DNA of 64,000 nucleotides from Ligustrum vulgare (taxonomy: Eukaryota; Streptophyta; Magnoliopsida; Lamiales; Oleaceae): contig OY743170.1 in assembly GCA_963555705.1 (NCBI GenBank), forward strand, positions 15,669,596-15,733,595, in the 5' to 3' direction. Position numbers and translations under genes: made by a program. Positions 4,281-50,803 of this stretch are shown here, piece after piece. The notes under the pieces were generated by a model, which saw nothing but the letters and a program-made list of their open reading frames with translations, was not told where the DNA came from and ran no database searches. Position 1 is the first letter of the stretch. Each line of letters starts with the position of its first letter.

Positions 4281-4292
4281 GCTCTGATACCA
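4281..4292 (-). promoter_or_regulatory. Primer-binding site, initiator tRNA-Met type
   Basis: On the minus strand this reads TGGTATCAGAGC, the standard plant retrotransposon primer-binding site for initiator methionine tRNA. It lies two bases inside the 5' LTR and fixes the element's orientation as minus. Confidence 0.92.
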
Positions 4293-18768: not shown

Positions 18769-20041
18769 ATGGAGGCTTCCGAACTAGCAAAGTTATATGC
18801 TGATCTTCAATTGGGTGATGAGGGGCATGCAGAGCATATATCGCAGGAAAACTTGGATGAGGGTCTATCTCGCTTGGATTGCAGTCTGTTCGGCAAGATC
18901 CTAGGCAGGCGGGCTGTTAATAAAGAAGGACTCTCCGGCGTGCTGAGACTCATATGGCGTACGGAATATCCACTCCAAATTGAGCAGAAGACAGGTTTTA
19001 ACATTTTCCTCTTCAATTTCGGATCTGCCGCGGACAGGAGTAGAGTATTAGCGGGGGGACCTTGGTCTTTCAACAAAAATCTAATCGTGCTTGAGAAACC
19101 AAATGGGCTAGGCGAGGTCTCATCAGCAAAGTTCAACAGAGCCTCATTCTGGACTCAGATCCGTAATGTCCCGCTGGTGCTCGAAACGGAGGAATGTGTT
19201 CGACAATGGGGGAGTAACATTGGACAAGTTGAAGCTGTGGAATTGGGAGGTCAGTTTGTACGTATCAAAGTTAATATTGATATTAATAAACCCCTTCGCC
19301 GATTTATTCGATTAATTGTGGGAGATACTTTAACTGAAGTCATATTATTAGTACAATATGAGCGCCTGCCAGATTTTTGTCACATGTGTGGCATATTGGG
19401 ACACAAAGATAATGAGTGTATTGGTGATGAGGAGGGGGATACAGGGGCAGTGGGGATGACTGGAAGGAAGAATTACGGAGCATGGTTGAACGCTCCTCCT
19501 TATAATGGACGTGGGCGTGGTCTGAATAGGTATGCATATACAGCCCGGTCAGAAGGTGATGCAGAAAGGGAAATGTGTGGTATGGAGGGCTTGGGGAGTT
19601 GACGGACTCAGGCTGAAGGATTGTCACAGCCATGTAACCCGCTTGCCTCTAAGTCCAAAGAGGGTAGCGGGGAAAGGGAAGAGGAAAGGCTGGATGTTGG
19701 CAGCAAGGAGGGTAGTAAGGAACGTGAAGGGGACGACGATGGTTCGACGGGAGTGCAGAACGGGAGTCAAGGAGATGGGGGAAAGGAAAAAAATGCTGAT
19801 TCCCCTAGTGACTAAATTGGGATCATGGAAGAGAAGGGCTAGAAAGGCACAGGAGAATGAAGAGAAAGATGATGATGGAGGTAGTCTTGGAAGTATGGCC
19901 TTGGGTACTAATCTGAGTAAAAGAAGACTGGTAATGAAGGATGTAAATGATGAGGGGTATTTGAAGAAGGTTAAGCAGGTTGTTGGGACCACAAATGAGG
20001 AAGTTGTGACTGAATTTATTTTAACGGCGGACCCTGCTTAG
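18769..20041 (+). pseudogene. LINE ORF1 (RNA-binding protein, one stop and one frameshift)
   Basis: Nucleic-acid-binding Gag-like protein of plant L1 elements, needed to form the retrotransposition particle. The N-terminal part (residues about 30-200) is a DUF4283-type domain, followed by an intact zinc knuckle CHMCGILGHKDNEC at residues 204-217 (CX2CX4HX4C). The frame is stopped by TGA at 19600-19602 but continues in the same frame as a charged Lys/Glu/Gly tail to 19815. It must shift to the next frame near 19790 to reach TAG at 20039-20041, just before ORF2. The original protein would be about 424 residues. A truncated 277-residue protein with the knuckle could still be made. Confidence 0.82.
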
Positions 20042-20058
20042 TGGGGCCGCCGACCCCA

Positions 20059-23000
20059 ATGATTTTCCTATGCTGGAATGTCCAGGGAGGGGGGAACCCT
20101 GGCACGTTAAAAGCACTCCGTTCAATTTGTAGGAGTGTGACCCCCGACCTAGTCTTCTTGTCCGAGACTAGGTTGTCTGGAGAAAGGGCAGCGGACTACA
20201 AATATAGATTGGGCTTTGATAACTGCTTTTTTGTTGACTGTGTTGGCAGAAGTGGAGGCCTAATGCTTTTATGGAATAATAACTGGAATATGAGTCTGAA
20301 ATCCTTTTCGAAAGGACACATTGATGTTGTAATCAGCATGGCAGTTGGGCGGGTATGGCGATTTACAGGATTCTATGGCAATCCAAAACCCGAGAACAGG
20401 CGTTTTTCTTGGGAACTACTTAGGAGATTACACAATCAGATGTCACTACCTTGGGTTGTGGGAGGGGACTTCAATGAAATCTCCTTAGATGCGGAAAAAT
20501 CTGGAGGGGATGTTCGGGATTTTGAAGCCATCAATGACTTTAGAACAGTATGGGCCGATTGTGGACTGTGTGATATGGGGTTTTTTGGACCAGCTTACAC
20601 GTGGAATAATAAAAGACAAGGGCTGGCAAATGTGTGTGAAAGACTAGATCGTTTCTTATGTAATGGATCCTGGAGAGAGTTGTTTGGAAGTTCTAAGGTT
20701 GAGCACTTAGAATATCAGCGGTCAGACCACCGCCCCATCCTTCTATCTCTATGCTCAAATAGAAAAGTTTGGCGACGGCGAGCACACAGACCATTTCGTT
20801 TTGAGCCATTTTGGACGAAGGAAGCTGATTGTGGGGAAACGATTACTCAGAATTGGTCAATCCCGGATGGGTTTGAAGAGGAAGGAAATCCCTTTGGGGG
20901 GATCCAGAGGAGACTTAGGCGATGCAGTGGGGGTTTAAAGGATTGGCACAATCACAGATTTGGGCATTGGAAGGATGAATTAACCCAACTCCGCAATAAA
21001 TTGAAAGCTCTGTACGATACCAACGATTGTGGAATGAGGATGAAGGACATTCTGGAAATTGAGAAACGGGTTGACTATCTAAATCATAGAGAGGAGATGT
21101 TTTGGAGACAAAGATCCAGGGTGGAGTGGCTAAGAGAAGGAGACCGTAATACAAAATATTTTCATGCCAGGGCTACTAATAGGAAATTGAAAAATACAAT
21201 TTCCCAACTGAGAGATGAGAACGAAACTTGCTTCACAGAGGACAAGGAAATTATTGCACATCTGGAAGATTATTTTTCAAGCTTATTCACATCTACCAGA
21301 CCCTCCGAGGAAGACTTGGATGCTGGAGTTGCAGGGATCTCAGCACCTCTATTACTAGCTGATGTTGAATGGCTGAAGAAACCTTTCACCACTGAAGAAG
21401 TTGAGGCTTCCCTTAAAGGAATGGGAGCGACCAAAGCACCTGGTCCTGATGGCTTCCATGCATTGTTCTATCAAAAATATTGGGATACGGTGGGGAAAGA
21501 GGTTTCTGATGCTTGTTTGAAGGTTTTGAACAATGGGGAATCGATCAGGCATATCAACCATACTCTACTGACACTTATCCCAAAGAAAACGGATCCTCAG
21601 CTGGCTAGTGATTTCAGACCAATCAGCCTATGCAATGTCACATATAAATTGGTTACAAAAACGATTGCATGTAGAATGAAAAGCATCCTAAATGGTTTAA
21701 TTGCAGAAAACCAATCCGCATTTGTACCAAACAGGTTAATCAGTGACAATGTTATCTCCGCTTTTGAGATTCTACATTCTATGCACAAAAGGTCAAATGG
21801 TAAGAAAGGGTTTATAGCCTTGAAAGTTGATATGAGCAAAGCTTATGACAGAGTGGAGTGGTGTTTTTTAAACAAAGCTATGGAGCGCATGGGCTTCCCA
21901 GAACGTTGGTGTCGGCTGGTACATGAATGTATCTCTACTGCATCTTTCTCTTTCAACATCAATGGAGAATCCCGAGGTATGGTTACCCCCAGCAGAGGAC
22001 TGCGACAGGGATGCCCTCTTTCACCGTACTTATTTATACTATGTGCAGAAGCTCTCTCCGGACTTATCAAACTTGAAGAGACAAATGGAAATGTAGTTGG
22101 GATGCAGTGCTCACGGGGAGGACCCCGGGTTAGTCACTTATTCTTTGCAGATGACTCAATTTTGTTTACCCGAGCTAGAGTTCATGACTGTCAGGCTATT
22201 GTCAAAATTTTTGATGTCTATGAAAAAGCATCAGGTCAGAAAATTAATATGCAAAAATCTAGCATATCTTTTAGCCCAAATGTGAGTCAAGATGATCGTG
22301 GCATTATCTTATCTACTTTGAATCTGGAATCAGCTCATGAACATGACCGCTACATGGGATTACCAACCGTTGTGGGAAGGGATAAGACCAGGACTTTTGC
22401 GAATATAAAGGACAGGATGTGGAGAAAAGTGCAGGGTTGGAAAGGGAATTGTTTCTCAGTGGGAGGCAGGGAGGTACTCATAAAATCAGTTTTGCAAGCC
22501 ATTCCAACTTATGTCATGAGCATGTTCAAAATTCCATTGTCCCTATGCCAACAGCTTACTTCGATTGCCAGGAATTTCTGGTGGGGTGCCAAAGGAGAAG
22601 ATAGGAAAATTTGTTGGAAAAAATGGGGAGATTTGTGTTGTAGCAAGCGAGAAGGTGGATTGGGATTCCGTGATTTCACTAAATTTAATCAGGCTTTGGT
22701 GGCAAAACAAGCTTGGAGACTTATTAATAATACCACTTCACTTCCAGCACGTATTCTAGCGGGAAAGTACCATTGCGGGGTGGACTTTTGGAATGCGATC
22801 CCTAAGCGGGGATGCTCTTTCTTGTGGCGTAGTATCCTATGGGGTCGGGAAGTGATATCATTGGGAGCCCGATGGCGAGTGGGAAATGGGGAAAGAATTA
22901 GGATTTATAAAGATCCATGGATTCCCTTTCGACCTAAATTCTCTCCCATCACTCGTAATACTTCTACTGAGACTACGGTGAATAACCTGCTAACAATGTC

Positions 23001-24153
23001 TGGTGAATGGGACAGGGATAAATTGGAGAGGTTGTTTTTACCGATTGACGTCGTAAGGATTACATCTATACCATTGGGAATGAGGCTAAGGGATGATAAA
23101 TTAATTTGGCACTTTGATAGGTTAGGTAACTACTCCGTGAGGAGTGGATACCATTTACTCGTGAACTTGGAACGGGAAAGTGAGGGACCGAGCTCAAACA
23201 CAACTGGGCATTGGTGGTGTAAAATATGGGGTCTGCCTTTGATGCCACGGGTAAGGATTTTTATTTGGAGGCTGTTTTTTGACATTTTACCATCGGGAGA
23301 GATGCTTGGACGACGGGGAATAACTTGCAACAGAGGATGTGCGTACTGCGGGGAATATGAATCAAATCTCCATATCTTCTTTGGGTGTAAGAGAGCAAAA
23401 CTCATCTGGAAGGAATCTGGAATCTGGTCTGAGATTAAGATGCATGCCTCTGGAACGTGTGCTGATATATTATGTAGTCTCGCTCTTAATCAGCTGTCAG
23501 TGGGGTTTGAAATTATTGGTGCACTTCTGTGGGTTATCTGGTGGGAGAGAAATTATGAGGCGTTTCAGGGTCGAAGAAGGGATACAAAACACTTGATAGA
23601 GCTGGCTTCATCTGTCATTTACCATGAAGAGAACCCAATTGGACAGAGGCAGCCCTCTCCAAAGGCGGGGAGAAAGTGGCAGCGTCCTACCAGGGGGTGT
23701 CTCAAACTCAACACGGATGCAGCTGTTCGAGATGAGATGATAGGTGTTGGGGCTGTGATCCGGGATGACCAGGGAATTATTATAGCAGCTATGAGTCGAA
23801 CACTAGAGGGCAGATATGAACCGGGAGATGCTGAAGCTTTGGCTCTACGGGAGGGACTCAAGTTGGCACAAAACACAGGAGTCCATGTTGACACCGCGGA
23901 GAGTGATGCTCTTCAGCTGGCTCGAGACATTGCACATATTTCTCCCTTAGCTCCAGGTGCCATGGTTCTTAGCGATATTCAAGTGCTTATGGACGAGGTT
24001 GGTTGTGGTTCGTGCTGCTACATCCCGCGTGAAGGGAATAGTGTAGCCCACAAGTTAGCTTCATATGCAACCTCTTTAGTTGATTCTAAACATTGGATTG
24101 ATTGTATTCCGTATTTTATTGCTCCCCAAGTTTTGGGCGACTTAAGTGAATGA
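20059..24153 (+). CDS. LINE ORF2: endonuclease, reverse transcriptase, RNase H
   Basis: Uninterrupted 1364-residue protein from the first ATG; the open frame extends upstream to 20041 but without an ATG. Domains in order: APE-type endonuclease at residues about 1-235, with CWNVQG, the ET of FLSETR, GGDFNE (135-140) and SDHRP (222-226); reverse transcriptase at about 440-770, with the catalytic FADD at 696-699; a zf-RVT Cys/His region around 1060-1130; and a C-terminal RNase H with Asp1220 (NTDAA), Glu1259 and Asp1283 plus a late His. It nicks the target, primes on it and copies its RNA in the nucleus. All catalytic positions I could check are present, so ORF2 may be functional even though ORF1 is broken. 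Confidence 0.95.
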   Translation: MIFLCWNVQGGGNPGTLKALRSICRSVTPDLVFLSETRLSGERAADYKYRLGFDNCFFVDCVGRSGGLMLLWNNNWNMSLKSFSKGHIDVVISMAVGRVWRFTGFYGNPKPENRRFSWELLRRLHNQMSLPWVVGGDFNEISLDAEKSGGDVRDFEAINDFRTVWADCGLCDMGFFGPAYTWNNKRQGLANVCERLDRFLCNGSWRELFGSSKVEHLEYQRSDHRPILLSLCSNRKVWRRRAHRPFRFEPFWTKEADCGETITQNWSIPDGFEEEGNPFGGIQRRLRRCSGGLKDWHNHRFGHWKDELTQLRNKLKALYDTNDCGMRMKDILEIEKRVDYLNHREEMFWRQRSRVEWLREGDRNTKYFHARATNRKLKNTISQLRDENETCFTEDKEIIAHLEDYFSSLFTSTRPSEEDLDAGVAGISAPLLLADVEWLKKPFTTEEVEASLKGMGATKAPGPDGFHALFYQKYWDTVGKEVSDACLKVLNNGESIRHINHTLLTLIPKKTDPQLASDFRPISLCNVTYKLVTKTIACRMKSILNGLIAENQSAFVPNRLISDNVISAFEILHSMHKRSNGKKGFIALKVDMSKAYDRVEWCFLNKAMERMGFPERWCRLVHECISTASFSFNINGESRGMVTPSRGLRQGCPLSPYLFILCAEALSGLIKLEETNGNVVGMQCSRGGPRVSHLFFADDSILFTRARVHDCQAIVKIFDVYEKASGQKINMQKSSISFSPNVSQDDRGIILSTLNLESAHEHDRYMGLPTVVGRDKTRTFANIKDRMWRKVQGWKGNCFSVGGREVLIKSVLQAIPTYVMSMFKIPLSLCQQLTSIARNFWWGAKGEDRKICWKKWGDLCCSKREGGLGFRDFTKFNQALVAKQAWRLINNTTSLPARILAGKYHCGVDFWNAIPKRGCSFLWRSILWGREVISLGARWRVGNGERIRIYKDPWIPFRPKFSPITRNTSTETTVNNLLTMSGEWDRDKLERLFLPIDVVRITSIPLGMRLRDDKLIWHFDRLGNYSVRSGYHLLVNLERESEGPSSNTTGHWWCKIWGLPLMPRVRIFIWRLFFDILPSGEMLGRRGITCNRGCAYCGEYESNLHIFFGCKRAKLIWKESGIWSEIKMHASGTCADILCSLALNQLSVGFEIIGALLWVIWWERNYEAFQGRRRDTKHLIELASSVIYHEENPIGQRQPSPKAGRKWQRPTRGCLKLNTDAAVRDEMIGVGAVIRDDQGIIIAAMSRTLEGRYEPGDAEALALREGLKLAQNTGVHVDTAESDALQLARDIAHISPLAPGAMVLSDIQVLMDEVGCGSCCYIPREGNSVAHKLASYATSLVDSKHWIDCIPYFIAPQVLGDLSE

Positions 24154-28472: not shown

Positions 28473-28989
28473 GTACATGTGACGACCCGAATTCTCGACC
28501 ATTCGAGTGCCACTAAAAGTGACTCATATCATATTATCGAGACTTAAATAGTAATGTAAAATTATTCAAAAGAATAATTAGAATCCCATAATTTTATTTG
28601 TGAATAAAAATAGAACATAATTTTCTTACATAAAGTTCAACATAATTATCTCATCAATCTTAACCACTTTTGCCACTTCCATGTTGACCGCCTCGAACCT
28701 TCAATTATCTGAAAATGGTAAATATCGTGGAGTGAGATTTATAAAATCCCAGTAAGTATACCAAGCATAAATTTTCTTTTGAAAGCATATGGATCATTTT
28801 CATCATAACATAGGATAGGATCGAAATACTCATAAACATAGGGAGACACAAGAATTTTACCGAACTTAAATAGAAAGAATTCTTATGTGTAGCGCTACTA
28901 AACTCCGGTCCCCTTAGCATAATCATAAACATATAATATGGAACCCATAACAATCTTGTGAGATTGATTTCATAGCAATGATCCAAACA

Positions 28990-29803
28990 TTTTTATAAAA
29001 ACATAAGATATACTTACTTTTCATAAAAACATACTTACTTTTCATAAAAACATAAGGTGTATTTACCTTTCATAAAAACATACTTACTTTTCATAAAAAC
29101 ATAAGATATACTTACTTGTCATAAAAACATACTTACTTTTCATAAAACATAAGGTGTATTTACCTTTCATAAAAACATACTTACTTTTCATAAAAACATA
29201 AGATATACTTACTTGTCATAAAAACATACTTACTTTTCATAAAAACATAAGGTGTATTTACCTTTCATAAAAACATACTTACTTTTCATAAAAACATAAG
29301 ATATACTTACTTGTCATAAAAACATACTTACTTTTCATAAAAACATAAGGTGTATTTACCTTTCATAAAAACATACTTACTTTTCATAAAAACATAAGAT
29401 ATACTTACTTGTCATAAAAACATACTTACTTTTCATAAAAACATAAGGTGTATTTACCTTTCATAAAAACATACTTACTTTTCATAAAAACATAAGATAT
29501 ACTTACTTGTCATAAAAACATACTTACTTTTCATAAAAACATAAGGTGTATTTACCTTTCATAAAAACATACTTACTTTTCATAAAAACATAAGATATAC
29601 TTACTTGTCATAAAAACATACTTACTTTTCATAAAAACATAAGGTGTATTTACCTTTCATAAAAACATACTTACTTTTCATAAAAACATAAGATATACTT
29701 ACTTGTCATAAAAACATACTTACTTTTCATAAAAACATAAGGTGTATTTACCTTTCATAAAAACATACTTACTTTTCATAAAAACATAAGATATACTTAC
29801 CTT
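28990..29803. repeat. 98 bp higher-order tandem array in the left LTR
   Basis: About eight 98 bp units, each made of four related 24-25 bp monomers of the form TTTTCATAAAAACATACTTA with distinguishing variants (aaggtgtatttacc, aagatatacttac). The matching array in the right LTR is at 36031-36844. Confidence 0.9.
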
Positions 29804-30025
29804 TTAAAAGATTAAAATGAAGTGTTGTAGTAAATGGACCAAAACTTTCTTGACCACCTTGAATTTCTCTTACTTGTGGATTTTGTCAAGAGATTGGAAA
29901 TAAGTGTATATGTGTAGAGTTGTGTGTAAAAGAGATGGGTTTAAATAGATGTATAAAGTTGGCATATTGTAAACATAATCATTCAATTCTATTAATTTTA
30001 ACACATCCTTTTCTTAAAGTAAAGC

Positions 30026-30481
30026 ACCATTCATATACTTTTCCATATTTATACAAATATTATGCTCTTCATGATTACATATAATGGAGTCTTATCAACC
30101 ATTCATATACTTTTCCATATTTATACAAATATTATGCTCTTCATGATTACATATAATGGAGTCTTATCAACCATTCATATACTTTTCCATATTTATACAA
30201 ATATTATGCTCTTCATGATTACATATAATGGAATCTTATCAACCATTCATATACTTTTCCATATTTATACAAATATTATGCTCTTCATGATTACATATAA
30301 TGGAGTCTATAATTCATTCATATACTTTTCCATATTTATACAAATATTATGCTCTTCATGATTACATATAATGGAGTATATAATTCATTCATATACTTTT
30401 CCATATTTATACAAATATTATGCTCTTCATGATTACATATAATGGAGTATATAATTCATTCATATACTTTTCCATATTTAT
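30026..30481. repeat. 72 bp tandem array in the left LTR
   Basis: About six units beginning ACCATTCATATACTTTTCC and running to ..TTATCA; later units are slightly shorter. The frame running through it is a by-product of a period divisible by three. The matching array is at 37067-37522. Confidence 0.9.
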
Positions 30482-30811
30482 TAAATTAAGATTCTCATAA
30501 TTATTATATATAATGGAACCTCTCATGCTTGCATATATTTTCTTAATTTCAATAATAAAAATAATTTTTGTATAAATAAATATTGGGATAACATTGAATT
30601 AAGTACTTGGACTTAATATACTTTAAATCAAGAGAATGGAGATATTTTTAGAAATTCGGAATTTAATTTAAAATCGAACGATCTCGATTATTTCTTGACT
30701 TGGCTATACGAATACGTCGTGGCGTTAACTTAATAAAAATGGGTGAAATAGTAGCGACACGATTTTCTATTAAAATAATTATTAATCGCGTAAAAATTCT
30801 TGGTCGCTACA

Positions 30812-30824
30812 AACTTACCCCCTT
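30812..30824 (-). promoter_or_regulatory. Polypurine tract of the cargo element
   Basis: Minus strand AAGGGGGTAAGTT directly before the left LTR, preceded by GAGGACGAAATTATTTTA, a block usual at the 3' end of the interior of plant chromovirus-type elements. Confidence 0.75.
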
Positions 30825-31694
30825 AAAATAATTTCGTCCTCGAAATTAAACTTACTTGATCTTATGATTTCTGAACACTTAATCAGAATCTCTTCTTCTT
30901 CTTCTTATGTAGCATCATCGCTACCATATTTAACCCAACCATATTTAACCCACTGGACTTTGACTAAATGCATCAATTTGTTTTCTTAAGACATGAACTT
31001 TTCTATCAATAATAGACATATGTCTACTCATAAATTCTTCTGACTCAAAATGAAAATTCCCAATCGTATGTGATATTTCATCATATCTTGTAGTACTCAT
31101 GTAACCTGTCACTTATCATCGTATCATGTAACCTCAAATATTCGTATTAATATCTCTAAAATTTCAATAAATCTTTACTAACATATCATACCATAATAAT
31201 TTGTCATTTCTTCTTATCACCAAATATCCCAAAATAATTAAAACGATTACCTGAATATTTTCTATGTAATATACCCAAACATGTTATTCACATATTAACA
31301 TAATCATCAGTTTATCTTTCCAATATTTGTAACCCAAAATTTCTGCAAAATTCAATAAACAAATATCTCCCAAATAATTAAAATTCTTAACTCAAATATC
31401 ATAACATTTCCCGTAAGGTATTCCTTTCACTTGCACAAACTTATTAATCCTGATTCAATACAGTCCTTATTTCACTTTCACATATACCCGTATTATTTCT
31501 ATACCTTGATTATTATATCAAAATATCAGTACCCAAAATCCAAGAAAATATTCCATATCTCAAATCCCGTCATCATCAAATATTCCTTTTATCAAGAAAG
31601 TAAACGGCGCATAACTCTTGTTCCCTCTTTTCCATTATTCTATTCCGCGCTTTCTTGCTGGAATCAATATCACGCGGATTTCCTCCGATCCTTA

Positions 31695-32294
31695 ATGCTT
31701 TTAAATAGTTCATGCTGGGAAGAGGTTAGATCCATCAAAAACATGGATATCATTCTTACAAACATTCGCAAGTATTATTCCAGTCTTCCAATGAATGATC
31801 TGAGGAAAATTTATCGAATAAGACTCGAAAGATTGAGGTTGCTGATGGCTCATGGTGTTTCAGAAGATGTTCGCTGGTTGATCGAAGCAAAGGTTCGACT
31901 ATCTGGTGAATTACCTATGACATTTCCAAAGCACATGCCTGGTTTAGGCAAAAGCACCTTCGCAAAGAAACGAAGAGCAAAAAGGCTGAATGGTTGCTAC
32001 AAATGTGCTCGTTGGAACTGTGATACTCGTTGCAAAACAGTAGGATATTCTTCTACTAATCGGGATGATAAAATCAAATTCATAAAGGGTGGACTGAGTA
32101 AGGAGTCTTTGGATGATATTCGACTGACTCTTGAGACGCACCCAAGTGGTTATGTGCAACGTGAACTTCTCTTCTTATACGCTCAGTTTAACGAGGACAA
32201 AAATCGTTATAGTCTCCAAAATATAATAGCAAAAGATCCTGTTTGCCAGTCTGTTTTACAAAATGAGGCTTCTGGCAGTTCAACAATGATATAA
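31695..32294 (+). CDS. Basic four-cysteine-finger protein in the retrotransposon (virus NABP-like, tentative)
   Basis: The open frame runs from 31431, but the first 80 or so codons are low-complexity and AT-rich. ATG 31695 (199 residues) or ATG 31743 (183 residues) is the likelier start. Counting from 31743: a charged helical N-terminus (1-58), a basic arm STFAKKRRAKR (71-81), then GCYKCARWNCDTRC, with cysteines at 85, 88, 93 and 97 (CX2CX4CX3C), then a charged C-terminal half. A basic arm directly before a four-Cys finger, followed by a K/R-rich FIKGG-type stretch, is the layout of the small cysteine-rich nucleic-acid-binding proteins of carla- and vitivirus-like plant viruses. I infer nucleic-acid binding. 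The viral relation is a pattern impression. It lies 296 bp upstream of the LOG ORF, same strand, antisense to the host element. It could instead be a captured plant protein I do not know. Confidence 0.55.
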   Translation: MLLNSSCWEEVRSIKNMDIILTNIRKYYSSLPMNDLRKIYRIRLERLRLLMAHGVSEDVRWLIEAKVRLSGELPMTFPKHMPGLGKSTFAKKRRAKRLNGCYKCARWNCDTRCKTVGYSSTNRDDKIKFIKGGLSKESLDDIRLTLETHPSGYVQRELLFLYAQFNEDKNRYSLQNIIAKDPVCQSVLQNEASGSSTMI

Positions 32295-32507
32295 GGTAAA
32301 TCTCTTGATACACATTTAAAATATTTTGCTGTTTTCTTTCACGCGTTTTGGAAATAAAATATATTTTCCTTTCTCGAGTTTTGATAAAGCTGGAAATAAA
32401 TCACCGAAAGGTGATATCTTTGGTAAAACAGTCAAGAGTTGGCCGATTTTGTCAAAAGTAAATCTTTACTTTTTCATAATCAATCAAAAACAGTAAATTT
32501 TTCCGGC

Positions 32508-32516
32508 TTTAAATAG
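32508..32516 (+). promoter_or_regulatory. TATA-like box before the LOG ORF
   Basis: TTTAAATAG about 75 bp upstream of the LOG start codon, with a leader rich in C and T after it. An imperfect palindrome of AAAAGTAAA and TTTACTTTT lies just upstream (about 32454-32473). Placement is right for a promoter of its own; there is no other evidence. Confidence 0.4.
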
Positions 32517-32590
32517 CCAAACATATTTCATAGTTCAGGCATCCCAAAATCACATCTTCTTCGTAAGTTTTCTCTTCTATACTATCAAAG

Positions 32591-33244
32591 ATGGAAGCAC
32601 CAAAACTTCGACAGATCAAAACTATTTGTGTATTTTGTGGATCAAAAGTGGGGAAAGGCTTCAGTTATCTAGAAGCGGCCGTAGATCTTGGAAAGAAATT
32701 GGGGGAAAAAGGTATCACTCTTGTGTATGGGGGTGGTAGCAGTGGTCTAATGGGTTGTGTTTCCCAATCTGCTCTTGCAGAGAAATCAAAAGTAATCGGT
32801 GTCATACCTGTCCCTTTGGTAGATGTTGCAGGCAAAACACGAGGGCATGAAGTTCAAACCTTATCCATCCATGAACGCATAACTTGTATGCTATATGGTT
32901 CTGATGCCTTTATAGCCCTGCCCGGAGGTTTTGGTACCTTAGAAGAAATCTTTAACATTACCTCGTGGGCTCAACTAGATCTCCATACTAAGCCTATTGG
33001 GCTTCTGAATGTTAACAATTTCTTTGATGGTTTGTTAACTTTTCTTGATTATGCTGTGGAACAGGGATTCATCTCTCCATTTTCCAGAAGGCTCCTTATT
33101 TCTGCTCCTACTATTGATGAACTACTGGATAAGCTGCAGTCATATATCTCAATACAAGATCCAGCAGGGGTTAAGATAGATTGGTCGCAAGGAAGGGGAA
33201 TCAAGCGAAAATGGAGTCCGGTTAATGTAAACTTAACTTTATGA
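32591..33244 (+). CDS. LOG-type cytokinin riboside 5'-monophosphate phosphoribohydrolase, intronless, inside an LTR retrotransposon
   Basis: LOG enzymes release active cytokinin bases from their riboside monophosphates in one step in the cytosol. This 217-residue protein has the normal plant length and the full fold signature: ICVFCGS near the N-terminus (12-18), GGGSSGLMG (47-55) for the phosphoribose, an Arg at 96 in HERI, and PGGFGTLEE (111-119), whose Glu119 is the family's catalytic acid. WAQL, KPIGLLNV and EQGFISP follow as expected. The residue after Arg96 is Ile where the family usually has Lys, which may affect activity. Plant LOG genes normally have several introns; this has none, so it came through RNA. 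It lies antisense to the carrying element, after the finger-protein ORF and before a hairpin-rich 3' region. No lesion is visible. Confidence 0.92.
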   Translation: MEAPKLRQIKTICVFCGSKVGKGFSYLEAAVDLGKKLGEKGITLVYGGGSSGLMGCVSQSALAEKSKVIGVIPVPLVDVAGKTRGHEVQTLSIHERITCMLYGSDAFIALPGGFGTLEEIFNITSWAQLDLHTKPIGLLNVNNFFDGLLTFLDYAVEQGFISPFSRRLLISAPTIDELLDKLQSYISIQDPAGVKIDWSQGRGIKRKWSPVNVNLTL

Positions 33245-33255
33245 ATCTTAGAATA

Positions 33256-33468
33256 GGTGGGGGTAGAGTACGGAGTATTCTTACTCTCGAGACACCCCTC
33301 TAATTTCCTAGGATTTTCCTTAATGTTTAAATCTTGTGTGTACCTCAAAGGTTCCAGGTGGTAGATTACGGAGTATTCTTACTCTCGAAACACACCTCTT
33401 TGAAGGTTTCTTTATTTCCTCAAAAGGTCAGAGTGGTAGGATACGGCTACTCCGGAAACACATCTCTC
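33256..33468 (+). repeat. Three hairpin-forming repeats in the 3' region of the LOG ORF
   Basis: Imperfect copies at about 33256-33300, 33356-33399 and 33430-33468. Each has the plan GGTRGR(A/T)TACGGAGTATTC..ACTC..GAAACACAYCTC, with complementary halves able to form a stem. The third is shorter (GATACGGCTACTCCGG). They start 12 bases after the stop codon, which suggests a structured RNA 3' end. Confidence 0.65.
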
Positions 33469-33564
33469 AATTTGAGGAATTTCCCATGTTGCTTTCTTTT
33501 GATTTTGCGTGTTTCATGTATTTCTTTCCAATGTGACTCTTGTGTGTTCTCCTTACGAGAAAAT

Positions 33565-33570
33565 AATAAA
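33565..33570 (+). terminator. Possible polyadenylation signal of the antisense cassette
   Basis: AATAAA in the context AAATAATAAATATC, about 320 bp after the LOG stop codon and after the hairpin repeats. Plausible end of a cassette transcript; unproven. Confidence 0.4.
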
Positions 33571-35505
33571 TATCTCTGTTATCATCTACTAAATCTCGTT
33601 TGTGATGTAAATGAATTTGCATGTCTAACCTCAATTCTCTTAGTGATTGCATACCATACTATGCTCTTAGTTCCAAACGATAAAATTCTAAGCAGAGTTT
33701 CCTTTGAAATTTGGACTTATTCAAACCGTAAGCATACTTCATAACTCACAATAATAAGTAATTCCACATTTGATCACAACGATCTAAAAATTGACCACAA
33801 TTTCATCAAACTTCAATATCATAAAAAAATATTCCAGAAAATCAATTTATAATTCCTCAACATAGAAATTTCAAATCATAGTCGTCAATATCACAATATC
33901 ACTTCCTTCAATACCTTAATTGGCTCAAAAGATTACTCATACTTATATTTATAAGTCATAAATCATATTCCCAAAATTTAATCACAAGGCCAAAGTTCAT
34001 AATAAATTTCTCTTCAATATAGAGGCATAATTCACTTACTCAACATAATATCCATTACTTAATTCCCAATAACCAAATCTTTAAATCTCTAACTTCATAA
34101 TGCTTCTCATAAAAGTCTCATTAAAATCATATCACTTATAATCTTAACATCTCATAAAAATTCATAAAATTGGCTCGCTATTTCTCATTAAATCTAAATG
34201 ATAGATAATCTGAACATATTTCTAATCATTTCTGTTGACTTCTCATACTTAATGCCATGTCTAAAATCAATTATGCAAAGTCCATTTAAGGTTTATCATT
34301 TCTAAACTCGAGGACAACAATTATTTTGAAAATCATTCTTAAGTCATATTATTCCCATTATGCTCAACACCCGTTCTCTTTCTTTCTTTTCTTTCTGAAT
34401 TTTTTTTTTTTTTTTTTTTTTTCAGAATTGAAACTTGAAGAGTGGTACCAATAATCATCCACAGTTTTTCCTTGCTTTTAAGCAAAGGTAGTGATAAAGG
34501 GATAAATTATTGAACCGAAAATTGAAACTTGAAGAGGAAGTACTAATAACCATCCACAGTTTTTCCCTTGTTTTTACACAAAGGTAGTGATAAAGGGATA
34601 AATTATTGTACGAATTCATTATCAATTTTGTTTGTTTAATATATTATTCCATATATTTTGGGCAAAAGTTACAACCCAACTTAATTTCTAATTGAGTCAA
34701 TCTTACTAAGCTTAATATGCACCAAAATTCATATAAATATCCTCTCTGTCTCATGATTCTACATTGAAAAGAATAAAAAAATTGAGTCTTCTATCAATTT
34801 ATATCATACTTGACATGTATATTATGTGTAACACATAAAGATTCATAACATATGAAGATTTCATACTTAACATGTCTTAATAAAATCGTAAATGACTTGC
34901 AAAGCATATAACATACCTGGTTCGAGGAGTCAATACGTGGAGAGTGACATAGTAGAGTGATGAGTTAAAATATTTCATATAATCTTATTTTCCTTTAATC
35001 AACAATAATTTAATGTGGTTGTATCCAAATCAACATTTTCTTGAATCATAATTCCTAATTAATCACAGTCTTCAAAACAAATCCAATATCGATATAGTAA
35101 TTATCTCCCCATCAATAATTAATAACTTAACCCAAATAAAATTTATCGTCAAATCTTATTTTTCCTTTAGTCCCCGAACTTCTAGAAATTTATCAAAGAC
35201 ATCAATATAAACATCATATCACTAACTAATTATATTCCATAAAATTTTCAGGACATTACAAACTCCCTTGCTTAAAATGAATTTTGTCCTTGAAATTCGC
35301 ACATCAAATTTCATCATGCTTTTCAAAATCATAACCATACTTGACATGTGAAAATTCAATTTTTTTTTATAATGAATAGTGATTTCGTTCACTGTTCATC
35401 ATGAATAGCACGTCGTTTTACTGTTCACGTGAATAGTGATTTTTTTTTTTTTTTTTTAAGAAATAAAATTTCAAAAATCTACATAATCGTTTTTAAAACT
35501 CTTTT
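33571..35505. other. Remaining interior of the cargo element, no gene
   Basis: AT-rich, with no recognisable coding block on either strand. A T-run is at 34400-34422, and a tandem pair of about 94 bp units at 34427-34613. Near 35240-35310 a short segment resembles the LTR-end/polypurine block at 30811-30850 (cattacaaactccc..gaattttgtccttgaaatt), possibly a relic of another related element. Near 35370-35450 there are inverted copies of GAATAGTGA/TCACTGTTC. Confidence 0.55.
34427..34613. repeat. Tandem pair of about 94 bp units
   Basis: Two units beginning ATTGAAACTTGAAGAG and ending GGGATAAATTATTG, about 90 percent alike by eye, following a T-run. Confidence 0.8.
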
Positions 35506-35518
35506 CTCTGATACCAAC
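35506..35518 (-). promoter_or_regulatory. Primer-binding site of the cargo element
   Basis: Minus strand GTTGGTATCAGAG, matching the initiator tRNA-Met type, two bases inside the right LTR. Together with the polypurine tract it fixes the minus orientation. Confidence 0.85.
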
Positions 35519-36030
35519 TGTGACGACCCGAATTCTCGACCATTCGAGTGCCACTAAAAGTGACTCATATCATATTATCGAGACTTAAATAGTAATGTAA
35601 AATTATTCAAAAGAATAATTAGAATCCCATAATTTTATTTGTGAATAAAAATAGAACATAATTTTCTTACATAAAGTTCAACATAATTATCTCATCAATC
35701 TTAACCACTTTTGCCACTTCCATGTTGACCGCCTCGAACCTTCAATTATCTGAAAATGGTAAATATCGTGGAGTGAGATTTATAAAATCCCAGTAAGTAT
35801 ACCAAGCATAAATTTTCTTTTGAAAGCATATGGATCATTTTCATCATAACATAGGATAGGATCGAAATACTCATAAACATAGGGAGACACAAGAATTTTA
35901 CCGAACTTAAATAGAAAGAATTCTTATGTGTAGCGCTACTAAACTCCGGTCCCCTTAGCATAATCATAAACATATAATATGGAACCCATAACAATCTTGT
36001 GAGATTGATTTCATAGCAATGATCCAAACA

Positions 36031-36844
36031 TTTTTATAAAAACATAAGATATACTTACTTTTCATAAAAACATACTTACTTTTCATAAAAACATAAGGTG
36101 TATTTACCTTTCATAAAAACATACTTACTTTTCATAAAAACATAAGATATACTTACTTGTCATAAAAACATACTTACTTTTCATAAAACATAAGGTGTAT
36201 TTACCTTTCATAAAAACATACTTACTTTTCATAAAAACATAAGATATACTTACTTGTCATAAAAACATACTTACTTTTCATAAAAACATAAGGTGTATTT
36301 ACCTTTCATAAAAACATACTTACTTTTCATAAAAACATAAGATATACTTACTTGTCATAAAAACATACTTACTTTTCATAAAAACATAAGGTGTATTTAC
36401 CTTTCATAAAAACATACTTACTTTTCATAAAAACATAAGATATACTTACTTGTCATAAAAACATACTTACTTTTCATAAAAACATAAGGTGTATTTACCT
36501 TTCATAAAAACATACTTACTTTTCATAAAAACATAAGATATACTTACTTGTCATAAAAACATACTTACTTTTCATAAAAACATAAGGTGTATTTACCTTT
36601 CATAAAAACATACTTACTTTTCATAAAAACATAAGATATACTTACTTGTCATAAAAACATACTTACTTTTCATAAAAACATAAGGTGTATTTACCTTTCA
36701 TAAAAACATACTTACTTTTCATAAAAACATAAGATATACTTACTTGTCATAAAAACATACTTACTTTTCATAAAAACATAAGGTGTATTTACCTTTCATA
36801 AAAACATACTTACTTTTCATAAAAACATAAGATATACTTACCTT
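36031..36844. repeat. 98 bp higher-order tandem array in the right LTR
   Basis: Exact counterpart of 28990-29803 at +7041. Confidence 0.9.
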
Positions 36845-37066
36845 TTAAAAGATTAAAATGAAGTGTTGTAGTAAATGGACCAAAACTTTCTTGACCACCT
36901 TGAATTTCTCTTACTTGTGGATTTTGTCAAGAGATTGGAAATAAGTGTATATGTGTAGAGTTGTGTGTAAAAGAGATGGGTTTAAATAGATGTATAAAGT
37001 TGGCATATTGTAAACATAATCATTCAATTCTATTAATTTTAACACATCCTTTTCTTAAAGTAAAGC

Positions 37067-37522
37067 ACCATTCATATACTTTTCCATATTTATACAAATA
37101 TTATGCTCTTCATGATTACATATAATGGAGTCTTATCAACCATTCATATACTTTTCCATATTTATACAAATATTATGCTCTTCATGATTACATATAATGG
37201 AGTCTTATCAACCATTCATATACTTTTCCATATTTATACAAATATTATGCTCTTCATGATTACATATAATGGAATCTTATCAACCATTCATATACTTTTC
37301 CATATTTATACAAATATTATGCTCTTCATGATTACATATAATGGAGTCTATAATTCATTCATATACTTTTCCATATTTATACAAATATTATGCTCTTCAT
37401 GATTACATATAATGGAGTATATAATTCATTCATATACTTTTCCATATTTATACAAATATTATGCTCTTCATGATTACATATAATGGAGTATATAATTCAT
37501 TCATATACTTTTCCATATTTAT
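37067..37522. repeat. 72 bp tandem array in the right LTR
   Basis: Exact counterpart of 30026-30481 at +7041. Confidence 0.9.
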
Positions 37523-37857
37523 TAAATTAAGATTCTCATAATTATTATATATAATGGAACCTCTCATGCTTGCATATATTTTCTTAATTTCAATAATAAA
37601 AATAATTTTTGTATAAATAAATATTGGGATAACATTGAATTAAGTACTTGGACTTAATATACTTTAAATCAAGAGAATGGAGATATTTTTAGAAATTCGG
37701 AATTTAATTTAAAATCGAACGATCTCGATTATTTCTTGACTTGGCTATACGAATACGTCGTGGCGTTAACTTAATAAAAATGGGTGAAATAGTAGCGACA
37801 CGATTTTCTATTAAAATAATTATTAATCGCGTAAAAATTCTTGGTCGCTACAGTACA

Positions 37858-40212
37858 ATAGTTTCATTATCAACCTTCAAAGATATATATTTTTCTACAT
37901 AAACAAAAGACTATCATTCATCCACTCATCACCCATTCAATTGCGCAATCTATCCTTCACAATGCTCATTGCAGAAAATACTCTCTCAACAGTAGCGGTA
38001 GCAACAGGTAGAATTAGCGCCAAAGTCAGAAGCTTATAAACAAATGAATATACCTTATTTTTCTTTGTCATTACTAACTTCTCTGCAAGATCTCCAAGGC
38101 CTTTCAATTCTTGAAATGCGTTGTTAGAGCGCATATCAAAAATATAAATTTCAAGTTGATCATCAAGTGTGAGAAGATCAAATCTTGAAAAATCTTCTAC
38201 ATAAAACTCTGCAAGTTAAATCAATCTTTTCTTATCGAAATCATAGAATGAATTTTGTGGACATAAACAAGCTACACAAAGGAGTAACTCTGTATTTACC
38301 TCTGAGAAACGATCATTCAACTCTTGAAGTTGCAAGTCCATGATAGCGTAGAATAAATCTACACAATAATGATGTAAATTTGTCACTTCCGGTGGGGGAT
38401 TACGCTGAGGATGACCACGAGGTGCACTGCGTATAAACACAGCATCCATATTGAGAACAACAATGTGATGTTGCTGACAAAAAGGATGAATTTCTTCCAA
38501 AAACAAATCCCACTCATTGTCTCTCATCATTTGGAGTCGTTGTTTGCATATTTTCACCAAGTTCATTGCATTCACAATATCTTGATCTTTCAATTGTAAT
38601 GCCTTTGACAACTCATTTGAAACTCCTAAGACTTTTTTTCATCAAGTGTAGATTAAATGCAAAATCAAACAAATGTATCGACTCCAATAAATTGAATGCC
38701 TCACTTTTCTGATCACTAGAACTAGATTCATCTTCTGAAATAAATTTAAGTACATCACTAACAAAAGAGAACATTGAAAGCAAACTGATCAAAGAATTAT
38801 AATGTGACCCCCAACGTGGATCACCATAACGCTGAAGAGTGGTTTCTTGATTAAGTCCCCGTCCACTTAAACCATCACCTCTCCCCAATGCCTCAACGAT
38901 AAAGTCTGAATGTTTCTCTCTAAGCAGATCATAACGTTTGCAAGATGCTACAATAATATTTACAACATCACCAACCACACGAAAGAAATTAGAAATTGGA
39001 ATATTCTTCTTTGCCACAGCTACAAGAGCTAGCTGAAATTGATGAGCAAAACAATGTATGTAAAAGGCATATGAGTTCTCCTTCAAAATGAGTGCTTTCA
39101 GACTATTGAACTTACCTTGCACATTACTTGCCCCATCATAATCCTGTCCTCTCAACCTAGATATGCTCAAATTATATCTAGAAAATAGCATATCAATTGC
39201 AGCCTTAAGTGATAAAGCTGTAGTACTGCTAACATGCTCAACCCCTATCAAACGTTCCACTACTATCCACATAAAATAGGACTACTGACATTTGCTCCTT
39301 TACTGATACATCATGGGATTCATCAACAAGAATAGAGAATAATAAATCGCCAGCATCTTTGATAATAACATTAATCGTTTCTGCAGCATAAGCACTCGCT
39401 ATATCTTTCTAAATATCAGAAGATGTTAACTTACAATTTTTAGGAGCATTTCCCAACACCACAGATTTAATATCATCATTATGATCAACAAGAAATTACA
39501 ATTGAACTAGGAAGTTACCTGGATTGAGAGAACCTTCAGATTCATCATGGTCCCGTAATGATAACTCATGGCGCAACAGAACTCTAACACAATCAATTGA
39601 TGCCTCAAGACGAATGCGATATTCATTACGTGTTTGTATTGACTGATTATGCAAAACTGAATGAATGTGTTGATCTTGATTCATCAATGCTTCACAACTC
39701 ATTCAAGCTTTGTTATGTTCACTGTCATGATTTCCCATGTGAAGTCGAAATCTTTCTTTATTTTTCCAATATGTAAACCCTTCGCTAACAAAAGATCAAC
39801 CTCCTCCTTGATTACCATGACTTGATTTGAAAAGGTAATAGTACAAACAATAAGCGGCATCTTTTTCTATACTATACTCCAACCAACTACCAAACTCCTT
39901 AAACCAGGAAGCTTGGAAGCGTCTAAATTGGGATGCTCCGTACTGTCGTCTTGGGAATACATGATCTGAAGGTTGACAAGCACCCTTTTGCAAATATGCT
40001 CTTTGAACTTGATCGTGGATATTAATATTGTAATTCGAAATGGGAACTCTTAAACCAGGATCGGTAGGAAGTTGTGTAATATCAACATCCACTCTATTTC
40101 CATGATCAATAGGAAGATGTGTAGGATCAACATCCACACTATTTGAAGCCCCCTCGTCAACATTTTCTTCAACTATGAATTTTCTTTTAAAGAATCTATC
40201 TAAGGTCGACAT
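37858..40212 (-). pseudogene. hAT transposase (TTF-type zinc finger, hAT C-terminal dimerisation), broken
   Basis: Starts at ATG 40212 (MSTLDRFFKRK). Next come a TTF-type finger region (about 39796-39950), the central transposase body including SRLRGQDYDGASN and the FYIHCFAHQFQLALVAV block (38613-39272), a further body segment (38216-38611), and the C-terminal dimerisation domain with LPVATATVERVFSAM (37937-38134). The gene is cut by several stops and frameshifts between segments; one stop replaces an Arg just before MGDEWMNDSL. The coding frame meets the LTR insertion at 37857 and its last residues (RFQSMK..) continue at 28432-28472 on the far side. The domain order matches plant MYM/TTF-finger hAT proteins. 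It is not expected to be active. Confidence 0.88.
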
Positions 40213-40236
40213 AATTTTCCCTACTAAAATAAACAA

Positions 40237-40868
40237 GTTATAATTAGAAACTCACAAATGAACTTCACAAACTACAAATCTCAAATTAGAAAAATTTCAA
40301 ACAAAGCTAATCATTAATTAAATCAATTAAAAATATCAATTAGATAACAAGAGTACAAGATATGAGAAATAAATTACTACTTCCAAGTTCCAAATAAAAA
40401 AATAAAATCATTACACTATAAATTAAATAAATTTCAAGTAGTGGCAGACACATGCTAAAAGTTAAAATCAAAAGTCATTACAATTCATTTACCCATGCCG
40501 ACACATAAGCTAGACATTAAATTCAAAAGTCAAAAGTTAAACTTAAAGTAAAGCACCTGCCTTCTTTTGCCTTCAGCTTTCAGAATTGAGAGAAACTTGT
40601 TGTGACTTTTTCGGTGCAGGCAGGAGGCAACATTGACAGTCGGTCGTCTGGCGACTCAGCAGGTGGTCGGAGCTAAGGAGTCGGAGATGGGAGTCACTGA
40701 GTCAGCAGTCGGCGGGTTTAGGGCTGTCAGTATCTTCACTTTTGGGCCAAGCTTTGCGCTCAAACGAGCAGATATAAACTTTTTTTTTTTTTTGGGGCCT
40801 TATTCGGTCCAGACCCAAGGTCCAGCGCGGACCATGGACTGCGCTGGGCCTTAAGTGGCTCCGCCACT
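40237..40868 (-). other. 5' region of the hAT element
   Basis: Non-coding DNA between the transposase start and the right terminal repeat. It becomes GC-richer near the end (40580-40860), as is usual for subterminal regions of this group. A T-run lies at 40780-40793. Confidence 0.6.
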
Positions 40869-46041: not shown

Positions 46042-49000
46042 TTAGCCACATATTTCACATTCATCAATAATTCCTAAACCTCTTATAATATAAGAGAATC
46101 TATCAAGAGCAAGAGCTTTTGTTAAGATATCGGCTAATTGACTTTTCGTGCTAACAAATTCTAAGTAAATATCACCTTTTTGTACATGATCTCTAAGAAA
46201 ATGATGTCGAATTTCAATATGTTTTGTGCGAGAGTGCAAGATGGGATTTTTTGACAAATTAATAGCACTAGTGTTATCACACATAATGGGAGCATTTTCA
46301 AAAATCGAGTGATAATTACTAAGAGTTTGTTTCATTCACAAAACTTGAGCACAACAACTAGCGACCGAGATATATTTGGCCTCGGCAGTAGATAGTACAA
46401 CGAAATTTTGTTTCTTGCCAAACCATGACACAGGTGCAAAGCCTAGAAAGTGATAACCACTTGTGCTTTTTCTATCAATTGTGCATCCCGCCTAATTGGC
46501 ATGCGAATAATTTATAAGATCAATATGAGTGCCTTCTGGATACCAAAGTCCCAAAGTTCTAGTGCCACATATATATCTAAAAATCCGTTTTAAGGCACTT
46601 AGATGAGATTATTTAGGATTGGATTGAAATCTAGCACATAAGCACACACTAAACATAATATCTGGTCTACTTGCGGTTAAGTAAAGAAGGAATCCAATCA
46701 TACCTCGATATTTTGTAATGTCAATGAAAGTGTCTTGCTCATCTTTGTCCAATTTGATTAAAGTACTCATTGGAGTATTCATTGAATTCAAGTTTTCCAT
46801 CTCAAATTTTTTGAGCATGTCCACAATGTACTTAGTTTGACTAATGAATATTCCTTCGCTAGTTTGTTTGATTTGAAGCCCAAGGAAGAATTTTAACTCT
46901 CCCATCATGCTCATTTCAAATTCATTGCTCATACATTTTGAAAATTCTTCACAAAGAGAAACATTAGTTGCACCAAAAATAATATCATCAACATAAATTT
47001 GTACAACAATTATGTCTCCCTTTTTGGTTTTGATAAAAATTGTGGTATCCGCATTTCCCATTTGAAAGCCATTTGAAATAAGAAATTTACTCAATCTTTC
47101 ATACCAAGCTCTAGGTGGTTGTTTTAAACCATATAGAGCCTTTCTTAATTTAAATACATTATCATGAAATTTATGATTTTTGAAACCGGGAGGTTGTTCA
47201 ACATAGAATTCTTCTTGAATAAAACCATTTAAAAATGCACTTTTGACATCCATTTGATAAAGAGAAAACCTATGTGACAATCAAAGTCAAGAAGCATGCG
47301 AATGGATTCTAGTCTAGCAACCGGTGCAAAAGTTTATTAAAAGTCAATGCCTTCTTCTTGATTGTAACCTTGGGCCACTAATCTATCCTTGTTATGCACA
47401 ATTATACCGTTTTCATCCTTTTTGTTTCGAAAAATCCATTTTGTACCAATAGCGGTTTGATCATTTGGTCTATCAACTAAATCCTATATATGATTTCTTT
47501 CAAATTGATTTAGTTCTTCTTGCATTGCAAGAATCCAAAACTCATCAAAGTCGGTTTTTTTGAAATTCTTAGGTTCAATTTGAGAAATAAAGGCACAATT
47601 ATTTAAGATTCCTTTAGTAGAGTTTCTAGTACTCATCCCTTTTTAAGGATCACCTATTATGAGCTCTTTTGGGTGAGATAGAGCAAATCTCCATTCGATA
47701 GTAAGTGTTTGATCACTTGAGTTTTTGGAAGATTTTCCTTCTTCTTGTTGAGGAGTTGGTTCTTCCAAATCTTTTTCTTCATTGTCTTTGGAAATTTCAT
47801 TACTTTGATCTTGAATATTCATTTCCTCAAAAGGAATTTCCAAACCTACATCAACACCTTTCTCTTGATCTAGAGAATTAGTTTCATAAAAAATAACATG
47901 TATGGATTCTTCCACTACTAGAGTTCATTTGTTAAAAATTCTATGAGCTTTGCTAGTAGATGAATAATCAAGAAAAATTCGAACATCGGATTTTGAATCA
48001 AATTTTCAGAATTTTTCTTTTGTGTTTAGAACAAAACATTTACAACAAAAAATCTTAAAATAGCCGATATTGGGAATTCTATTTTTTCAAAGCTCATGAG
48101 GAGTTTCAGTTTTCTTTCGACTTACTAAAACTCTATTCATAATATAGCAAGCGGTGTTAAAGGCTTTGACCCAAAAATATTTTGGTAAGTTATTTTCATT
48201 TAGCATAGTCCTAGCCATTTCTTGCAACGTGCGATTCTTCCTTTCTACTACACCATTTTGTTGAGGAGCTCTAGGAGCCAAGAAATTATGTTCATACCCA
48301 TTTATTTTGTAAAACTCATCAAAAGCCATGTTATCAAATTCTCCACCATGGTCACTTCTTATAGTTGTAATAGAATATTCTTTTTCATTTTGAACCTTTT
48401 TGCAAAAATGTTTAAATATATTTAAAGTTTCATTTTTCAAATTTAAAAATAAAACCCAAGTAAATCTTGAGAAATCATCAATAATGACAAAAGCATAGTG
48501 TTTACCACTCAAGCTTGCGGTTTTAGGTGGTCCAAAAAGATCCATGTGAAGAAGTCATAACGATTTTGTGGTGGAAGAAAATTGCTTTTTTTTGTTTTCC
48601 AAATTGACAAGCATCACAAATCTTGTCCTTTTCAAATTTCAAACTTGGTAGGTCTTTAACAAAGCAATTTTTTGATATTTTTGAAATAAGGTCCATACTA
48701 ACATGACCCAATCTTTTATGCCATAACCAAGTGTCATCTTTAAAACTTGACAAACATTTTAATTCTTTTTCAAATTCAATATTGATGATATAAACATCTT
48801 CACTTCGGCTTCCGATGAACAATACCTCTTTCGATGTAGCATCTTTGATAAGACATCTAGAAGAATCAAATTTAATATGATAACCTTTATCTCACTAATA
48901 CTTAGCAAATTATGTTTGAGATTATCTACTAATAAAACATTTTCAATAGAAGGAGATAGATGATTACCAATATTTCCAATGCCAATGATTTTTCCTTTGG

Positions 49001-49574: not shown

Positions 49575-49586
49575 ATTCTTTTCGGC

Positions 49587-50765: not shown

Positions 50766-50803
50766 AACTCTAGATTGTAAAATCTAAATGAAAGAGTTCC
50801 TAA

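Follow-up and report, generated by a model that had tools for sequence, protein, structure and literature searches.

Within a stretch of 64,000 nucleotides of Ligustrum vulgare DNA, here termed the window, lies a long terminal repeat (LTR) element that carries, in antisense, two intact open reading frames (ORFs), one encoding a finger protein related to the NABPs of RNA viruses and the other a protein with the fold of the cytokinin-activating enzyme LOG (Table 1). Our preferred reading, which we hold to be reasonably probable, is that of a recent, non-autonomous LTR element equipped with an old antisense module of NABP and LOG, in which the LOG has been remodelled and through which the host would be made more permissive.

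Table 1. Features of the element and its cassette, with positions counted from the first nucleotide of the window
Feature	Position	Strand	Basis
Target-site duplication GTACA, left copy	28473..28477	.	sequence
3' LTR (minus-strand reading)	28478..30811	-	identical to 35519-37852
Polypurine tract TTTTAAGGGGGTAAGTT on minus, abutting 3' LTR	30812..30828	-	sequence
Cassette block, edges approximate	31600..33660	+	GC and GC skew vs flanks
TATA-like TTTAAATA before finger gene, predicted	31700..31707	+	sequence
Viral_NABP/Carla_C4 finger protein, 183 aa	31743..32294	+	Pfam match; start from alignment A1
AATAAA signals (32353, 32395) after finger gene	32353..32400	+	sequence
TATA-like TTTAAATA before LOG, predicted	32508..32515	+	sequence
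LOG-fold protein, 217 aa	32591..33244	+	PF03641, E 1.3e-33
AATAAA after LOG	33565..33570	+	sequence
tRNA-Met-type primer binding site, reading TGGTATCAGAG on minus; 2-nt gap to LTR	35506..35516	-	sequence
5' LTR (minus-strand reading)	35519..37852	-	identical to 28478-30811
Target-site duplication GTACA, right copy	37853..37857	.	sequence

Anatomy and age of the element and its cassette

The features by which LTR retrotransposons are recognized are all present in matching places, namely two LTRs with TG..CA ends, a target duplication, a primer binding site (PBS) and a polypurine tract (PPT). In the minus-strand orientation, CGTCACA closes the 5' LTR, and after 2 nt comes TGGTATCAGAG, the 11 nt of which we take to fit the 3' end of initiator tRNA-Met. 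From the positions of the primer site and the purine tract it follows that the element reads on the minus strand and that both plus-strand ORFs are antisense to it. The original prediction had described just such an element, and its identical LTRs, GTACA duplication, PBS and PPT were indeed found where a minus-strand reading needs them, with the intact LOG and finger ORFs on the opposite strand.

The two LTRs show no difference over 2,334 bp. Substitution rates are on the order of 7e-9 to 1.3e-8 per site and year, and with rates of this kind the absence of differences translates to a 95% upper bound on the insertion age of roughly 50,000-90,000 years; identical LTRs could equally stem from gene conversion or assembly error. 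Tandem repeat arrays with units of ~49 bp and 71/72 bp are present at 28851-30612 and in the corresponding part of the second LTR. Between the LTRs, the finger and LOG ORFs are the only ATG-started ORFs of at least 80 aa, and neither a gag-pol frame nor any further stop-to-stop frame of at least 150 aa was found there. The element is non-autonomous, its gag and pol reading frames being absent at these thresholds, below which short remnants of a decayed pol may be present, in line with the earlier description of a recent element free of gag-pol. No second copy of the LTR or of the cassette was found inside the 64-kb window.

The primer site also bears on the lineage of the vehicle. Athila, like the remaining lineages outside the chromoviruses, does not use tRNA-Met as a primer (PMC6317226), and the tRNA-Met-type PBS, of 11 nt, therefore argues against filing the vehicle as Athila-type Ty3/gypsy and sets it apart from the (Athila) lineage in which the cargo is suspected. 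The vehicle would instead belong to a tRNA-Met-primed, chromovirus-like lineage, with a copia-type element as the alternative.

The two genes reside in a block of GC content 0.31-0.45, in which the GC skew is scattered around zero (-0.40 to +0.50), whereas the flanks have a GC content of 0.23-0.33 and a skew of mostly -0.2 to -0.7, the right flank at ~34400-35100 being in parts near zero or positive too. Judged by composition, the block is probably a foreign segment, and the transfer of a module between retroelement lineages would be the simplest reading of its presence in this vehicle. Within the block, a TATA-like box, a prediction only, lies upstream and AATAAA downstream of each gene; in the original prediction, such signals bracket the cassette. 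The motif TTTAAATA was chosen after it had been seen; its expected count in the block is 0.16, and it occurred at least twice in 6 of 500 simulated sequences.

Elsewhere in the window, a long LINE-type element (18763-24153, plus strand) contains a DUF4283/zinc-knuckle frame and a 1379-aa open frame with endonuclease, reverse transcriptase, zf-RVT and RNase H-like (RVT_3) domains, while pieces resembling a broken hAT-type transposase lie just past the right LTR (38216-40251, minus strand), where 38613-39281 is a DUF4371 match and 39796-40251 lacks a Pfam match. Ty1/copia remains with gag (PF14223) and RVT_2 occupy 46609-50783 (minus), and a second tRNA-Met-type primer site motif at 4282 is perhaps from another LTR element. 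Two frames ~50 kb apart (4776-5312 and 54426-55112, minus) look alike by eye, the former matching a glycosyl hydrolase family 3 C-terminal domain, and an open frame at 63380-63868 (minus) consists of a short GHTRSQFGHTKSQ-like repeat unit and resembles tandem repeat DNA.

The finger protein and constraint on both families

As originally described, the finger ORF is basic and has four cysteines, with a KKRRAKR stretch preceding a C-x2-C-x4-C-x3-C finger; it is, however, far from anonymous. By its matches to Viral_NABP (PF05515; 32.6 bits, E 1e-07, against a Pfam gathering cut-off of 23 bits) and to Carla_C4 (PF01623), likewise above the Pfam cut-off, the protein is a member of the nucleic-acid-binding family of carlavirus-type RNA viruses. 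The assignment extends to the relatives: in alignment A1, composed of the window protein and 39 hand-chosen sequences from 120 listed NABP matches, Viral_NABP was matched by 40/40 sequences and Carla_C4 by 38/40 (E <=0.01). The same 39 relatives set the start of the gene at the position given in Table 1, and a start at the first ATG (31695) was rejected. A chance basic ORF was rejected in view of the Pfam matches, the conserved relatives and the family-wide matches in A1. The protein search yielded 413 matches at E <=0.001 among 464 candidates, and the named organisms among the best 120 of these are Orobanche, Populus, Xanthoceras and Acer.

The structure model of the finger protein is poor (pLDDT 61) and too weak to rank folds. 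Its matches to the viral structures of BFVD are weak as well, the best being an unnamed match with E 0.075; five of the seven best matches in the viral library are named (E at least 0.095), each of them being a flexivirus protein of NABP type, a suppressor, or the cherry mottle leaf virus 15-kDa protein. Neither a PDB sequence search with the NABP profile nor a scan of viral contigs with NABP returned a match. Carlavirus-type NABPs are cysteine-rich, nucleic-acid-binding proteins described as silencing suppressors, and the NABP of chrysanthemum virus B, p12, is described as a transcription factor that induces hyperplasia (PMC12172455).

Among the genome contigs searched, the sole NABP match is a 3,330-bp contig (L002) filed under a Nomurabacteria MAG, where it is evidently plant contamination. 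Integrase domains (H2C2 and rve) are encoded in one of its open frames, and 204 nt past the stop of this frame comes NABP, in sense; its NABP is over the Viral_NABP cut-off and just misses that of Carla_C4 (19.8 vs 20.9 bits), and LOG was not found in its 3,330 bp. The integrase is presumably Athila-like, to go by its signature. The gap between integrase and NABP (1594-1799 of this contig) has a pyrimidine-rich stretch ending in CAG that, read by eye, resembles a 3' splice site and could serve a spliced NABP message.

NABP and LOG are also found together in other loci. Four of the 120 listed NABP matches are Orobanche gene models (P0018, P0019, P0020 and P0023; three from O. gracilis, one from O. 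minor) in which NABP and a LOG domain are fused, finger first, and which by eye resemble decayed LOG copies. Contigs of sizes 4511 and 8723, both >3 kb, appear in the NABP as well as in the LOG list, paired by size and source label, and two such size-shared contigs >3 kb were seen in 0 of 1000 shifted controls. The shared sizes 1524 and 1558 were dropped because they are within chance, shifted controls over all contig sizes of 1250-40000 sharing 0.84 on average and up to 4, and still shorter shared contigs are unable to hold both genes.

Selective constraint is evident in both families. A comparison of the window NABP with that of L002 (181 codons, whose first, second and third positions differ 54, 38 and 83 times, respectively) gives dN 0.29, dS 1.32 and dN/dS 0.22 by NG86, and dN 0.27, dS 1.60 and dN/dS 0.17 by maximum likelihood, with dS near saturation. 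For LOG, conserved columns account for only 1/81, 1/88 and 4/90 of the differences from ~60% identical kin, the expectation being 23-26; for the closest relative the count is 2/16, with 4.6 expected (p 0.36). The LOG clade is thus constrained, without a significant sign of recent constraint, and the earlier suggestion that the cargo is kept finds support at the level of the two families (NABP dN/dS ~0.2, conserved columns avoided). The comparison with that closest relative, together with the identical LTRs and the composition of the cassette, would also suit a passive passenger, that is, a piece with NABP and LOG taken from another retroelement by a degenerate element through nested insertion or template switching, its ORFs intact only through youth. 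We regard this as possible but doubtful, given that relatives of both proteins occur elsewhere, for LOG an intact 217-aa form (93% identical) and for NABP one of 147 aa (82% identical over 71% of the query), and that the window NABP departs from the latter preferentially outside conserved columns (p 5e-05); a constraint acting on kin is no proof of usefulness in the window copy.

A LOG with a changed pocket and a new tail

The features of a type-I LOG, namely the fold, the PGGxGTxxE motif and the catalytic Arg/Glu, are kept in the window LOG. Its model has a mean pLDDT of 86, residues 201-217 being <50, and the predicted fold matches AtLOG3 (2a33_B) with a TMt of 0.96 at 52% identity. In CgLOG, Arg99 and Glu122 are catalytic, Lys100 helps to hold the adenine, and the prenyl site is seemingly formed by Met96, His97, Lys100, Glu125 and Trp129; almost no activity was left when those AMP-binding and catalytic residues that were tested had been replaced by Ala, S19A being the exception (PMC4979012). 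In the window LOG, with positions assigned by alignment to CgLOG, R96, E119, H94 and W126 are kept, whereas I has taken the place of both M93 and K97, and N that of E122. The changes at K97 and E122 are typical of the family: among the best 120 kin, R96 is present in 112/120 and E119 in 118/120, as compared with 8/120 for K97 and 7/120 for E122, while each of the four residues is found in 120/120 of the best host-type LOGs and the Lys/Glu pair in all four distinct PDB LOGs aligned. Seven of the eight proteins that keep the Lys also keep the Glu, which indicates that the two were lost together.

Loss of the pair in the window LOG and in most kin renders a cytokinin-activating role doubtful, and by alignment the protein appears to depart from the cytokinin-specific type-I pocket (CgLOG K100 and E125 to I97 and N122). 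The original designation as a plain cytokinin-activating LOG is accordingly not supported, two pocket positions that are invariant among the host-type LOGs sampled having changed. We therefore consider it unlikely that the protein is a working cytokinin enzyme which, by raising local cytokinin, keeps cells dividing or meristem-like and so lets new copies reach the germ line: the retained R96, E119, H94 and W126 and the close fit to AtLOG3 would accord with such an enzyme, whereas the K97, E122 and M93 replacements, the near absence of the pair from the kin, and the loss of activity in the CgLOG mutants speak against it.

A second departure concerns the C-terminal tail, which is of low confidence in the model and ends in IKRKWSPVNVNLTL. 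Its VNVNLTL corresponds to VxLxL, one residue off the strict EAR consensus LxLxL (PMC9956375). An LxLxL motif occurs in the last 12 residues of 92/120 best kin and 0/120 best host-type LOGs (shuffled: mean 3.0, maximum 10), and a basic cluster in the last 25 residues of 105/120 and 1/120, respectively. Of the 28/120 kin without a strict LxLxL, 4 show a less strict arrangement of hydrophobic residues over their final 12 positions and others are truncated or chimeric gene models, with the basal Xanthoceras rows lacking the motif too; with F allowed, a hydrophobic pattern is found in the last 8 residues of 100/120. A pathogen effector recruits TOPLESS through a C-terminal LxLxL, and in the same report none of ten other LxLxL effectors tested bound TPL (PMC7446885), so that the motif alone is no proof of binding.

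All tail and Lys/Glu counts refer to the best 120 matches from one search each for kin and for host-type LOGs, the latter having scored the 7998 candidates that share most words and yielded controls that are mostly LOG1/3/4-like by name. Many rows come from few genomes, Reevesia pubescens alone accounting for 38 of the 120 listed LOG clusters (counted by eye), and the rows are consequently not independent; the listed kin, putatively encoded in retroelements, include Populus LOG proteins. Alignment A2 comprises 25 hand-chosen sequences of the 120 listed LOG matches. A scan of viral contigs with LOG returned one distant relative only (L001, 29% identical).

In a tree of 55 LOG rows, hand-picked for spread (33 of 120 kin, 17 of 120 host-type and 4 PDB pieces), the window LOG and 33 kin form one clade (support 99/97) and 19 host-type LOGs are set apart (100/97), with two bacterial LOGs as outgroup. 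The row nearest to the window LOG is P0121, the intact 93% identical protein, and the next ones are ~60% identical. Three basal Xanthoceras rows keep the Lys/Glu pair and have no tail, and in P0161, which follows next, the pair is kept and the tail is present. This arrangement suggests that capture was followed by gain of the basic tail, then of the EAR-like tail, and finally by loss of the pocket residues, an order that depends on the root; since the long branches of the host-type and bacterial LOGs meet, the root, and with it the order of tail gain and pocket loss, is less sure than the clade itself. Three proteins annotated as LOGL10, P0125 (Diospyros lotus), P0180 (Populus trichocarpa) and P0218 (P. 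nigra), are kin of the window LOG with an LxLxL tail, the first two lying inside its clade in the tree, and all three may belong to retroelements and have been mistaken for genes of the host.

Among the host LOGs sampled there is none of which the tree makes the window LOG a recent copy, the placement that would have gone against the original prediction. Fresh capture of the transcript of one host LOG, with a finger ORF that adjoins it by chance, is a reading for which the single uninterrupted LOG frame might be cited; it is disfavoured by the separate clade, unless an unsampled host LOG subfamily is the true nearest kin, and by the conservation of the finger family, and we deem it highly improbable.

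A putative effector module and its relation to known systems

The cassette anatomy, the protein families, the clade, and the tail and pocket statistics are direct results; for expression, localisation and effect of the proposed antisense module, we infer the following scheme. The accessory pair of NABP and LOG is probably long-standing in plant Ty3/gypsy elements, each gene most likely being driven by a separate promoter in the orientation opposite to that of the genomic RNA, and the element would be moved by borrowed gag-pol. By analogy with its virus relatives, NABP is probably nuclear and acts on nucleic acids as a silencing suppressor or transcription activator. The LOG-fold protein, with its catalytic Arg/Glu kept, its pocket remodelled and an NLS/EAR-like tail added, most likely no longer simply makes cytokinin; it may act on another nucleotide or serve as a nuclear adaptor to TOPLESS-type corepressors. 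Together, the two proteins would make host cells more permissive towards elements of this family. A broader and more tentative proposal, to which we give limited credence, is that plant LTR retroelements own a two-protein effector module of mixed origin, comprised of a finger shared with plant RNA viruses and a captured LOG which by stages acquired a basic and then an EAR-like tail, lost its cytokinin pocket and so became an adaptor to corepressors that is nuclear and binds nucleotides, and that this module can pass between lineages and is found here in antisense, with its own promoters and without gag-pol.

Should the module function in the proposed way, the effectors with which viruses and pathogens manipulate their hosts would have counterparts in plant retrotransposons, one of them shared with RNA viruses and the other made from a hormone enzyme, and there would be a testable reason for the persistence of accessory ORFs that are dispensable for the replication of their elements. 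Moreover, some of the genes annotated as 'LOG' in Populus and Diospyros may encode proteins of retroelements, a point that bears on cytokinin gene-family counts.

A LOG cargo in retroelements is already known. No report of NABP in retroelements, and none of an EAR-like LOG tail or a LOG pocket change, was found in the open-licence literature searched, mostly titles and the starts of abstracts. Two Athila-like elements with LOGL4 similarity were reportedly described by Steinbauerova et al. in 2011. The novelty that the original prediction implied for the LOG cargo is also lessened by the LOG-type YgdH domain that a later paper, citing Steinbauerova et al., notes in consensus sequences of Citrus and Populus retroelements (PMC9289625). 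These Ty3/gypsy elements resemble that of the window in having a LOG-type accessory ORF, whereas the window element, tRNA-Met-primed and devoid of gag-pol frames, carries its LOG in antisense and pairs it with NABP; the available portion of the YgdH report makes no mention of a tail or pocket change (PMC9289625).

Antisense accessory ORFs as such are shared with Retand, Grande and RIRE2, with TRP28 predicted to be DNA-binding; Retand has mainly a TRP28 domain between pol and the 3' LTR, as opposed to NABP and LOG without a pol frame in the window (PMC11963269). The retroelement NABP, with ~182 aa, has extra N- and C-terminal parts that set it apart from the NABPs of carlaviruses and allexiviruses, and it lies inside a genomic LTR element and not, as in flexiviruses, towards the 3' end of an RNA genome. 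The Cys spacing differs between the two as well. Common to both are a basic stretch and a four-Cys finger over ~60 aa (PF05515, PF01623; PMC12172455). Finally, the window LOG shares the fold, the PGGxGTLEE motif and the catalytic Arg/Glu with the plant cytokinin riboside 5'-monophosphate phosphoribohydrolases of the LOG type (AtLOG3, 2a33), from which it differs in the loss of the Lys/Glu pair, the gain of a basic LxLxL-like tail and its position in a separate clade.
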